Part shown: positions 10,769-21,175 of the stretch, one piece after another
Layout: every line of letters begins with the position of its first letter
How positions within the stretch are numbered: the stretch's first letter is position 1
NCBI GenBank assembly: GCA_025351345.1
Contig: JANXWB010000065.1
Span: forward strand, 1 to 34,416
Source: Synechococcales cyanobacterium GL140_1_metabat_312
GTDB lineage: Bacteria > Cyanobacteriota > Cyanobacteriia > Leptolyngbyales > Leptolyngbyaceae
Length of the DNA: 34,416 bases
Reading direction: 5' to 3'
Notes under the pieces: generated by a model
What the model was told of the DNA's origin: nothing
Seen by the model: only the letters and a program-made list of their open reading frames with translations
The model's database searches: none
Made by a program: the position numbers and the translations under genes

Positions 10769-11656
10769 ATGGGAACCGATGAGACCCGATCGCTCAAAAA
10801 TTATCCCGCCCTCGCTACCCGAAAACGCAGCCCAAACTCTCGTCTGTTGCGTTGGTTTCGTGAATCAACCCTTTTCTTATCATCGCCCGACAGTCGTCAA
10901 CAGCTGCAAAAATCCCTCACGACAGGCCGATCGGGAGCTGGACTGGCTAGTGTAGGGAGTGTGTTGCTGTTGCTATGGAATGCCAAATTAGTCTTCTCGA
11001 CGGGCGCGGGCATTGGGACCATGATGGTGATGTATTTGCTGCAAGATGCACAGTGGCGACGAGAAAAACTCCCACAAATTAGTGAGCGGATTCAGGCGCA
11101 ATTTGAAGGTCTCAATCGTCCATTTTTGTGGAGTACGATCGGTGGCGGAAGTGCTGCATTTTTGAGCTATTTAGCCATTTCAGCTTGGACAGAGACCGAT
11201 GCTCATTGGTTAGCGACGGGCCTTTTGGTGCAGGGATTAATGACCTTTGGGGTGCTGGGATTGGCGCTGCGGCGGGTCTTGGGCGAGACTCACACGATTG
11301 AGACAATAGAGGTGTCCCATTGGGTAGAAACACTGTCTCATTCGGATCCGATTCAACGCTTGTTGGCGGTACGACAATTAACTAAAACAGCCCAGTCCAC
11401 GCCCTTGATTCAGCAAAAGGAAATCCTTGAATATTTTCAACTCATGGTGTCCCGTGAACCGGAAGAATCGATTCGCGAAGCCGTTTGGCAGGCGCTAGAG
11501 ACATTGATGCCGACATTAAACAATTTGACTGATTTAAAGAGCTTGACGGATTTAAATAATTTGGCTGATCTAAACAGTTTGACCCAGACAGACGATCGGA
11601 TTCCGGTTTCTTCTGAATTAACTCAAGCGAAAATTAAGGCTTGGGTTGAACACTAG
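10769..11656 (+). CDS. Membrane protein with a HEAT/armadillo-like C-terminal region
   Basis: A 295-aa protein of unknown function. A basic N-terminus is followed by hydrophobic segments at about residues 58-92 (SVGSVLLLLWNAKLVF, IGTMMVMYLL) and 113-165. A cytoplasmic helical region resembles one HEAT/armadillo repeat (SDPIQRLLAVRQLTKTA ... EESIREAVWQALETLM). The tail carries a six-residue repeat: LTDLKS, LTDLNN, LADLNS, LTQTDD. Similar cyanobacterial proteins are annotated as armadillo-type fold-containing. GGAG at 10759-10762 supports the ATG at 10769. It precedes secDF, but a 224-nt gap separates them, so a functional link is only inference. Confidence 0.7.
   Translation: MGTDETRSLKNYPALATRKRSPNSRLLRWFRESTLFLSSPDSRQQLQKSLTTGRSGAGLASVGSVLLLLWNAKLVFSTGAGIGTMMVMYLLQDAQWRREKLPQISERIQAQFEGLNRPFLWSTIGGGSAAFLSYLAISAWTETDAHWLATGLLVQGLMTFGVLGLALRRVLGETHTIETIEVSHWVETLSHSDPIQRLLAVRQLTKTAQSTPLIQQKEILEYFQLMVSREPEESIREAVWQALETLMPTLNNLTDLKSLTDLNNLADLNSLTQTDDRIPVSSELTQAKIKAWVEH
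11522..11584 (+). repeat. 18-nt coding tandem repeat
   Basis: About 3.5 imperfect copies of an 18-nt unit of the form TTGACTGATTTAAAtAat encode the six-residue repeat LTDLNN-like at the C-terminus of the membrane/HEAT-like protein. The repeats differ at several bases but keep L, D and L positions, which suggests expansion by slippage followed by divergence. Confidence 0.6.
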
Positions 11657-15732: not shown

Positions 15733-15768
15733 TTGGGTTAGGTGATGTAAGGATAAATCGGTAAATTA

Positions 15769-15788
15769 GGGGGATTAGCTCAGTTGGT
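15769..15788 (+). other. tRNA 5' fragment (acceptor strand plus D-stem), remnant
   Basis: GGGGGATTAGCTCAGTTGGT matches the 5' acceptor strand and D-arm start of an Ala-type bacterial tRNA. The sequence after it has no AGAGC D-stem closure, no anticodon arm and no GGTTCGAATCC T-arm. It is therefore a fragment, not a tRNA gene. It lies 36 nt after the SGNH gene and about 94 nt before psb27. Confidence 0.55.
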
Positions 15789-15881
15789 GTGGATTCTAAG
15801 TCGGGGTTCTGGATGACCGGGTTACACATCACGGTAAGATGATCTTGAAGAACTCATAATAACTTTGCTTGCGACTGACCT

Positions 15882-16283
15882 ATGAAGCGTATTCTGTCTC
15901 GCCTGATGGCGATCATTTTGGTAATCTTGATTGGCGTGACGGGTGCATCCAGCGCCGCGATGGCTGATAGTCTTTCCGGTGACTATGCTGTCGATGCCTT
16001 GGCTTTGGTGGAACTTCTCAGACAGACAGTTGATGTCGCTCCTGAGGCGACCGATCGAATCGCCCTCCAAAATGAGTCTAAGAAAAAAATTAATGAGTTT
16101 GCCTCACGCTACCGTCGGGGAAGCGTCATGAAGCTCAGTTCCTATACCACCATGCGAACTGCCATCAATTCCTTGGCGGGTCACTATACTAACTACCCAA
16201 ACCGTCCCGTTCCTGAAAAGATGAAAAAACGATTGATGGTTGAATTTCGTCAAGTCGAAACAGCGCTGAAGCGTGGGACGTAA
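15882..16283 (+). CDS. psb27: Photosystem II assembly factor Psb27
   Basis: Lumenal PSII assembly and repair factor that binds CP43 in Mn-free PSII intermediates. It is 133 aa with a signal peptide (MKRILSRLMAIILVILIGV ... AMA) and the mature four-helix domain. INEFASRYRR, SSYTTMRTAINSLAGHYTNY and RPVPEKMKKRLMVEFRQVE closely follow the Psb27 pattern. Cyanobacterial Psb27 is usually a lipoprotein with a lipobox cysteine (as in LTAC). Here the signal region has no cysteine and instead shows an AMA-DS type signal peptidase I site, so the protein may be soluble in the lumen. A clear terminator follows about 95 nt downstream of the stop. Confidence 0.92.
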   Translation: MKRILSRLMAIILVILIGVTGASSAAMADSLSGDYAVDALALVELLRQTVDVAPEATDRIALQNESKKKINEFASRYRRGSVMKLSSYTTMRTAINSLAGHYTNYPNRPVPEKMKKRLMVEFRQVETALKRGT

Positions 16284-19432: not shown

Positions 19433-21175
19433 TTATGGCTCTTGAACCAAGGCAGCAAACGATTCATACACTTGGGCTAACGCTTGACGCTGATCATTAC
19501 CAGACTGACTAAATTCAGACAAGCTACTGGTAATAAATTCAACACGTCCCTTGAGATCTGTGAGGTTATCTTGGAAGGGCTGAAGCATTTCGTCATAAAG
19601 CGCGAGTTTTGACTGACTGTTAGCTAACAGAACCCTCTTATCTTGCAAGGTTTCGTCTTGAGCTAAGAGGGCTTGGTGCTGGGGCATTAAGTCTTGTTCC
19701 TGTTGAGTTACCATGCCTTGAGTCTGCTCGATGGAACTGTGAATTTGCGCAATCTGGGTCTCAATTTGGACCAACTCTTCCGATCGTTGCTGACGGAAGC
19801 TATCAATTTGAGCGAAGACTGGACCTAAGTTGAGTCCATTTTCAGACGCATGGGGATCAGGTTTACCTTGACGACGAGCCACAACAGTTTGGTGCTGACG
19901 TAGAACGCTTTCCTTTTCCCGCACGCTACGACGTTGACCCACTAAGGTCTCATTCAAGAATTGGTAGGCATCCCGTTCATCGGTTAGTTCATTCTCCAGG
20001 TTCAACCGATCGAAATGATTGGCTTGAGACACACGATGTTCGAGTTCATCGATTTCTTTTTGCTTCAGTTCCAGTTCCTCCTCTTGATTTGAGACAAAAT
20101 CTGAAGATCGCTTAAAGTCACTGGAAATATCACTAATCAGACTTTGGAGCGCTTCGATATTCATGGCTTCTAGAGCCGCTACATCCACTTGTCCCGCAAT
20201 GTTCACATCATCAAGTCCTTCCGTCATCCGGTAAAGCTGCTGATGAATTTCTTCATGGTGCTGCAATTGTAGTGTCAACGCTTGAGCGTAGTCGTGCTTA
20301 GCTTGAACCATGGACTGTTGAACCTGTAGCTCAGCTTTGGCTTTTTCTAGGCCATCTGAAGCATCGCGCCATTGTTGCCACTGAATCTGATGAGTTTTAG
20401 TGCTTTCATCCAGTTCAATTTGTTGGGCTTCAAGCTGCGATCGGTACTCACCCACTCGGTCCCAATGGATCTGAAGCTGAGACTGCTGTTGACCAATCAC
20501 CTGTTGAGCAAAGCCAGTCTGTTCTTGAACCGTGTCCAGGGATACGATCGCGCCCTCAACCCGGTTTAGCAATCCATTAATATGTTGAGCCTTTTCCGTA
20601 TCCAGCACCGTCCCCTGCTGAATCTCTGCTTTACGATCCTCCAGCCGATTCATCTCGCCCCTAAGCTGATCCCACGCCCCTTCAAGCTCTTTCTTTTGAC
20701 GATCGAATTCTTCCTTTTGCCCCTCGACTTCAGTGCGGACCTGTTCAAACTGCTCGCGCTGGGACTCCATTTGTTCCGCATCGCTTTCCATTTGCTCAAG
20801 CTGCTCTCGCCGCGCCTCCATCTCCATTTCACGACGATTCAGCTCTTGACTTTGATAGGTCAGAGACTGTTTCCACTGCTCAATTTCTTCTTCTTGGGTC
20901 TTAAATTTCTCTTGTAGTCGCGAGAAAGTTTGCAGGATGCTCACTAAAGGCCGTCCGGCTTCCTGAATCCTTTGCACCTGACGACTAGTGGTCAAGTCAG
21001 CCAGTAATAGTGTTCCGGCTGCATAACGACTCGCTTCGTCCGCCGGGACCGTTTCTTCCCCCGTTACGGCAGTCCAGTTCTGCTCGGTTCGCTGACAAGC
21101 CAAGAGTTTTAACTCGGTCTTGCTGCCCCCCATCAGACCGCTTTTTTTTTGAATGACTTCTGCCAAATAAAGCAC
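19433..21175 (-). CDS. hmpF: Pilus motility/taxis protein HmpF
   Basis: Cyanobacterium-specific coiled-coil protein required for type IV pilus-driven motility. In Nostoc hormogonia it localises to the cell poles under control of the Hmp chemosensory system. It is 580 aa. A small N-terminal globular region opens MLYLAEVIQKKSGLMGGSKT, with LKLLACQRTEQNWTAV and DEASRYAAGTLLLADL (about residues 1-85). The rest is almost continuous Gln/Glu-rich coiled coil (about 88-560) with few prolines and no membrane segment. It is divergent from the chemosensory operon across 304 bp, which fits a shared role and possibly shared control. Confidence 0.9.
   Translation of the reverse strand: MLYLAEVIQKKSGLMGGSKTELKLLACQRTEQNWTAVTGEETVPADEASRYAAGTLLLADLTTSRQVQRIQEAGRPLVSILQTFSRLQEKFKTQEEEIEQWKQSLTYQSQELNRREMEMEARREQLEQMESDAEQMESQREQFEQVRTEVEGQKEEFDRQKKELEGAWDQLRGEMNRLEDRKAEIQQGTVLDTEKAQHINGLLNRVEGAIVSLDTVQEQTGFAQQVIGQQQSQLQIHWDRVGEYRSQLEAQQIELDESTKTHQIQWQQWRDASDGLEKAKAELQVQQSMVQAKHDYAQALTLQLQHHEEIHQQLYRMTEGLDDVNIAGQVDVAALEAMNIEALQSLISDISSDFKRSSDFVSNQEEELELKQKEIDELEHRVSQANHFDRLNLENELTDERDAYQFLNETLVGQRRSVREKESVLRQHQTVVARRQGKPDPHASENGLNLGPVFAQIDSFRQQRSEELVQIETQIAQIHSSIEQTQGMVTQQEQDLMPQHQALLAQDETLQDKRVLLANSQSKLALYDEMLQPFQDNLTDLKGRVEFITSSLSEFSQSGNDQRQALAQVYESFAALVQEP

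Follow-up and report, generated by a model that had tools for sequence, protein, structure and literature searches.

The psb27 gene of the window (the whole 34,416-nucleotide stretch of DNA analysed here, a contig of the Synechococcales cyanobacterium GL140_1_metabat_312) encodes a Psb27 without any cysteine, as a sequence-only reading of the stretch had observed, and very probably a functional one, whose export signal appears to have become an ordinary secretory signal in place of a lipoprotein signal and which would be released into the lumen. The complete gene (15882-16283, + strand; 133 aa) stands in the plus-strand order secD, secF, an open reading frame without a Pfam match, psb27 and ccsB. 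Its product lies above the cut-offs of two family models (TIGR03044, E 4.6e-44, 149.3-149.8 bits against 117.35; PF13326, E 3e-20, 73.4 bits against 25), and a sequence search retrieves the solved Psb27 chains 7nhp (7.3e-30), 2y6x (3.8e-28), 2kmf (4.8e-28) and Arabidopsis 5x56 (3.6e-9). Residues 1-130 of 7nhp align, by sequence only, with residues 1-131 of the query, that is, the whole mature Psb27 domain. Elsewhere in the window, two open reading frames have no Pfam match at E 0.001 (19433-21175, - strand, 580 aa; 10769-11656, + strand, 295 aa).

The lost lipobox and its putative replacement

The N-terminus of Psb27, encoded by 15882-15970, reads MKRILSRLMAIILVILIGVTGASSAAMADS. Residues 1-28 (15882-15965, + strand) form a predicted signal peptide with a basic start, a hydrophobic core and AMA at -3 to -1, for a predicted cut between A28 and D29; the predicted mature protein (residues 29-133; 15966-16280, + strand) contains the conserved stretch TMRTAINSLAGHYTNYPNRPVPEK in alignment to 7nhp, 2y6x and 2kmf. 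When N-termini of the family are set side by side, residues 19-22 (VTGA; 15936-15947, + strand) appear as the remnant of a lipobox, with codon 22 (GCA, Ala) at the site of the lipid-bearing Cys in the LTGC of relatives: the window has VTG-A-SS against LTG-C-SS or LVG-C-SS. The lipobox ending in Cys at the end of the signal that defines bacterial lipoproteins is absent, and the small -3/-1 residues after a hydrophobic core that define signal peptidase I substrates are present as AMA-DS, so that both the proposed loss of the lipobox Cys and the proposed likely signal peptidase I site are borne out. Related genera have AAA, ANA, AVA or AYA where the window has AMA.

Three circumstances had been named beforehand as fatal to this reading (an alternative start, a second copy, or a sequencing error), and none holds. 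An upstream start giving a lipobox is ruled out by an in-frame TGA (15876-15878, + strand) two codons 5' of the ATG, which makes any longer product in the same frame impossible. Whole-genome protein and Pfam searches likewise rule out a second copy with a Cys: no other psb27 was found in the window's own genome (3.85 Mb, 99.99% complete), where the next protein match has E 0.32 and the Pfam model places one gene. The genus comprises four genomes, the window's and L004, L005 (Alkalinema sp. CAN_BIN05) and L006, and Psb27 is Cys-less in all four (95%, 96% and 86% identical to the window's, respectively), with AMA or ALA preceding DSL in each. Whole-gene dN/dS is 0.055 against L004, 0.041 against L005 and 0.076 against L006, and the window psb27 is under purifying selection. 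The concordance of four genomes excludes sequencing error and dN/dS values of 0.04-0.08 exclude gene decay as the source of the missing Cys.

Two features of the 5' region deserve separate mention. In the first 29 codons of psb27 (15882-15968), the comparison with L004 and L005 shows a single synonymous difference in 22.5 sites, whereas the rest of the gene has 34 in about 75 (Fisher p 0.0003, from rounded counts); the near-identity of these two with the window begins about 25 bases 5' of the ATG, and the contrast is weak against L006. A regulatory or RNA-level constraint is possible, as is a recombination block. Further upstream, 15768-15840 (ggggattagctcagttggtgtgg...) resembles the 5' part of a tRNA; neither ARAGORN nor Rfam finds a tRNA there, and its first bases are absent or different in L004-L006, as for a possible tRNA remnant or a chance resemblance.

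Recurrence of the change across cyanobacteria

The Cys-less state is not peculiar to this organism, a point on which the sequence-only reading has to be corrected: among the genomes sampled, 5 of 29 families and 20 of 101 genera contain Psb27 without a lipobox Cys, and 17 of these genera are affected throughout. A draw of 386 genomes from the phylum gave 185 with a Psb27 match, three of them remnants with stops that we excluded; the draw genomes without a match, among those listed, all lie outside the class except G051. Together with the window's own family, in which 40 of 42 genomes gave a match, this made 218 Psb27 genes for comparison, under a lipobox rule wider than the printed consensus in that LMGC (39 forms) was accepted. 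The lipobox Cys is present in 165 and absent in 53 (36 of 182 in the phylum draw alone); of these 53, 39 have no Cys at all in the 24 residues that precede the conserved G, and 14 have one at another place in that stretch. All 16 genomes of genus g33, presumably Prochlorococcus, are without the Psb27 lipobox and measure 1.6-1.7 Mb. PMC5895690, PMC8038367 and PMC11449106 describe Psb27 as a lipoprotein, either of cyanobacteria at large or of most of them, and the wording 'most' suggests known exceptions; among the matches listed, titles and abstract openings report no cyanobacterial Psb27 without a lipobox.

Several genomes in this sample are unusual in other respects. In G395 (L125), whose genome is in 380 contigs, psb27 has the lipobox LMGC but its reading frame is broken, by true change or assembly error; the gene is counted among the 165 lipobox forms and omitted from the site counts below (n = 164). 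The three excluded remnants (G147, G183 and G268) carry 4 to 8 in-frame stops in single-contig genomes of 2.8-3.1 Mb from one genus, in which G143 (4.8 Mb) has an intact psb27; this would fit a loss of photosystem II, as in endosymbionts. G051 (family f7) has no psb27 match in a 99% complete single-contig genome of 3.8 Mb, and G233 of the same genus has one. In L085, L086 and L126 (family f26, genus g58), Psb27 falls under the TIGR03044 cut-off and has no lipobox, with about 20 residues from a candidate cut site (ANA or VNA) to the conserved GxY.

Loss of the Cys goes together with a candidate signal peptidase I site. Under a lenient (-3,-1) rule, such a site is found in 53 of 53 Cys-less Psb27 (24 of them without a strict AxA) against 69 of 164 lipobox forms, for a Fisher p of 1e-16 that is overstated because species are not independent; counted by genus, the figures are 20 of 20 against 24 of 83, and a strict AxA site occurs in 29 of 53 against 21 of 164. 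In Cys-less forms the stretch before the conserved G is also shorter: its median is 5 residues after the predicted cut (n = 50, without the three f26 genes), compared with 9 residues from the Cys in lipobox forms (n = 164). In the window only four residues (DSLS) separate the predicted cut from the conserved GDY.

An RpoB tree built for 40 genomes of the window's family (20 of 37 inner branches starred, root not inferred) shows at least 5 changes of the Psb27 lipobox state: in the clade of g1, the window's genus, with g144, g148 and g157 (support 100/100), in g158 (7 of 7 genomes), in g145 (2 of 2 genomes), and in the single genomes G398 and G423. We read change as loss rather than gain because the lipobox is prevalent. 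Most simply, then, the lipobox was lost once in the ancestor of the window's genus and its three sister genera, and at least four further times in the same family.

The at least 5 changes in the window's family, and the spread over 5 of 29 families, speak for a neutral loss, in which the lipid is of little consequence for Psb27 and the Cys disappears wherever there is a usable signal peptidase I site close to it. In the sister pair G422 and G423, the lipobox form of G422 (LVNCSSAFA) already has an AFA site, as does G423 (LGNSSAAFA), and the 69 lipobox forms with a lenient site point the same way. Against neutrality, whole genera hold the new state (g158, 7 of 7; g33, 16 of 16) and the mature N-terminus has shortened, both of which are compatible with drift too. 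As between adaptive and neutral loss of the Cys, we put neutral loss close to an even chance, perhaps a shade under.

Ycf48, CyanoQ and CyanoP

The window's genus has probably freed two partner proteins, Ycf48 and CyanoQ, in the same way as Psb27, to judge from their N-termini. We searched for each in 46 genomes and found Ycf48 in 45 and CyanoQ in 43, assigning states by a rule with a hydrophobicity threshold and comparing these by eye with the N-termini (the Ycf48 of G421 is a fragment and was left unscored; the states of G177 were read by eye). In all four genomes of the genus Ycf48 is without a lipobox (N-terminus in the window's genome, VVTGLLSHAMPSDAAFLK), as is CyanoQ (VMVLCVAFVNPADAKPKK, with a Cys within the core). 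CyanoP of the genus, by contrast, keeps the Cys motif LTLQGCSAG, in which the Q at -2 lies outside the printed consensus; LQGC was accepted by eye as a lipobox. This combination, Ycf48 and CyanoQ also lipobox-less in a genus with Cys-less Psb27 and CyanoP still Cys-bearing, is what is new here.

The CyanoP Cys motif is present in 22 of 22 genomes searched and an LspA gene in 21 of 22, the window's genome included in both cases; LspA was not found in the 84% complete genome of G398, and in G394 it is in two pieces. A general loss of the lipoprotein pathway is therefore rejected, and retention of both the CyanoP motif and the LspA gene means that lipobox loss in the genus is selective.

Could lipidation of luminal photosystem II factors have been abandoned jointly in this clade, along with an altered site or mode of photosystem II assembly? 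Psb27, Ycf48 and CyanoQ are all lipobox-less in g1 (four of four genomes) and in g144 and g157 (one genome each). These are the 6 of 40 readable family genomes in which the Ycf48 lipobox is absent, and all six also have a lipobox-less Psb27: among family genomes whose Psb27 has no lipobox, 6 of 17 have lost it in Ycf48 as well, against 0 of 21 among those whose Psb27 has one. G177 (a single contig of 3,046,682 bases), which belongs to another family and is perhaps Gloeomargarita, the plastid sister lineage, likewise lacks all three lipoboxes and retains the CyanoP motif. The comparison nevertheless holds few independent pairs with Psb27 (2 for Ycf48, 5 for CyanoQ). The sister genus g148 retains the Ycf48 lipobox, which implies that the Ycf48 state changed at least 2 times, and the two changes seen both fall within one clade. 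Within the family CyanoQ is often lipobox-less (27 of 41 genomes, among them 12 whose Psb27 keeps its lipobox). Psb27 is the sole lipobox-less factor in G161 and G209, neither of which yielded a CyanoQ, and in G109. A joint abandonment is thus conceivable, if on balance doubtful.

Similar events are described in other cyanobacteria. Ycf48 without a Cys is reported for T. elongatus (PMC8038367), a change of the same kind in another luminal assembly factor and one found in the window's genus too; in T. elongatus, however, Psb27 is given as lipidated (PMC9458691), which also counts against a joint loss. CyanoQ without a lipobox is reported from Acaryochloris marina and JSC-12, among others (PMC4180030), again the same kind of event in a luminal photosystem II subunit and shared with the window's genus, although here the protein is a different one whose lipobox is commonly lost in the family.

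Proposed export and binding of a Psb27 without lipobox

Compared with the cyanobacterial lipoprotein (7nhp, 2y6x, 2kmf), the window Psb27 shares family, signal position and a conserved C-terminal half, and differs in lacking the lipobox Cys, in having a likely signal peptidase I site instead, and in the short distance to GDY. We propose that export has passed from signal peptidase II and an N-terminal acylated Cys to signal peptidase I, so that the precursor would be exported and cut after A28 (AMA-DS), freeing the mature domain into the thylakoid lumen. Soluble Psb27 would then rely on protein contacts alone to bind CP43 and the luminal face of intermediates in photosystem II assembly and repair, as is supposed for plant Psb27. 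With Ycf48 and CyanoQ carrying the same kind of signal, CyanoP would be the sole predicted lipoprotein of the four in this genus. Signal peptidase I cleavage, solubility, retained photosystem II binding and any functional advantage of the Cys-less form are all inferred from sequence.

The plant protein Psb27-H1 (Arabidopsis 5x56; spinach) offers a likeness, having no lipobox, no N-terminal Cys and a very short N-terminal extension, the last being the feature by which PMC5895690 sets Arabidopsis Psb27 apart from that of T. elongatus. It differs in being a chloroplast protein and in being more distant in sequence (E 3.6e-9), and the likeness may reflect convergence or an unknown descent. PMC13089150, contrary to PMC5895690, describes plant Psb27 as a protein on which lipid modification 'has been observed'.

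Experimental precedents, as given in the relevant passages of their sources, point in more than one direction. Recombinant unlipidated Psb27 binds the luminal domain of CP43 with a KD of 21 uM (PMC4758025) and spinach Psb27-H1 cross-links to CP43; the lipid anchor is also said to strengthen the Psb27-CP43 contact (PMC13089150). In PG-starved Synechocystis the uncut Psb27 precursor failed to bind photosystem II (PMC8038367), and in a separate study of Synechocystis the Cys-to-Ser form of CyanoQ (C22S) fell to 17% and was apparently uncleaved (PMC5033237); both fit the presence of a candidate cut site in natural Cys-less Psb27. Also in Synechocystis, CyanoQ given the whole signal of soluble PsbO did not accumulate (PMC5033237), and Ycf48 without its Cys was mostly in the soluble fraction and off photosystem II, with normal growth (PMC8038367). 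A soluble-type signal alone therefore need not preserve function, and the Ycf48 result in particular suggests that Psb27 binding may suffer without the lipid. Natural Cys-less lineages may hold further changes besides the signal.

Alternatively, the signal peptide may remain uncut and hold Psb27 in the membrane as a signal anchor. Its long hydrophobic core (AIILVILIGV) would suit such a role, and the partitioning of uncut CyanoQ C22S in Synechocystis resembles that of a membrane protein (PMC5033237). We consider this improbable, given that AMA or ALA is kept throughout the genus and comparable motifs in related genera, and that uncut Psb27 does not bind photosystem II in Synechocystis (PMC8038367). 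A Psb27 in decay or no longer needed by this lineage, with Cys loss a part of the decay, is very improbable: its TIGR03044 score is among the lowest in the family, but dN/dS is low, the frame is open in all four genomes, the C-terminal half is close to solved Psb27, and true decay looks different, as in the stop-ridden remnants described above.

The preferred reading, an exported and soluble Psb27, bears on the role of the lipid itself, which has been called unclear for Psb27, Ycf48 and CyanoQ (PMC8038367; for Psb27 also PMC9145668). Lineages that dropped the anchor repeatedly beside close lipobox-keeping sisters, such as G423 beside G422, are natural mutants, and in the window's genus only one of the four anchors examined is left; such lineages make it possible to ask whether the anchor governs how photosystem II is bound, where it is assembled, or nothing that can be measured. 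Cys-less cyanobacterial lineages also bear on the origin of the chloroplast forms. It is tempting to go further, in a tentative proposal that we think rather unlikely to hold as a whole: that the free-living Alkalinema clade freed most of the luminal photosystem II factors examined (Psb27, Ycf48 and CyanoQ) from lipid but retained the LspA gene and a CyanoP with its Cys, in a plastid-like and stepwise manner, with Psb27 before Ycf48 and Ycf48 lost at least twice; and that, if the genome with the same triple state in another family is indeed Gloeomargarita, the plastid ancestor may already have been partly de-lipidated.
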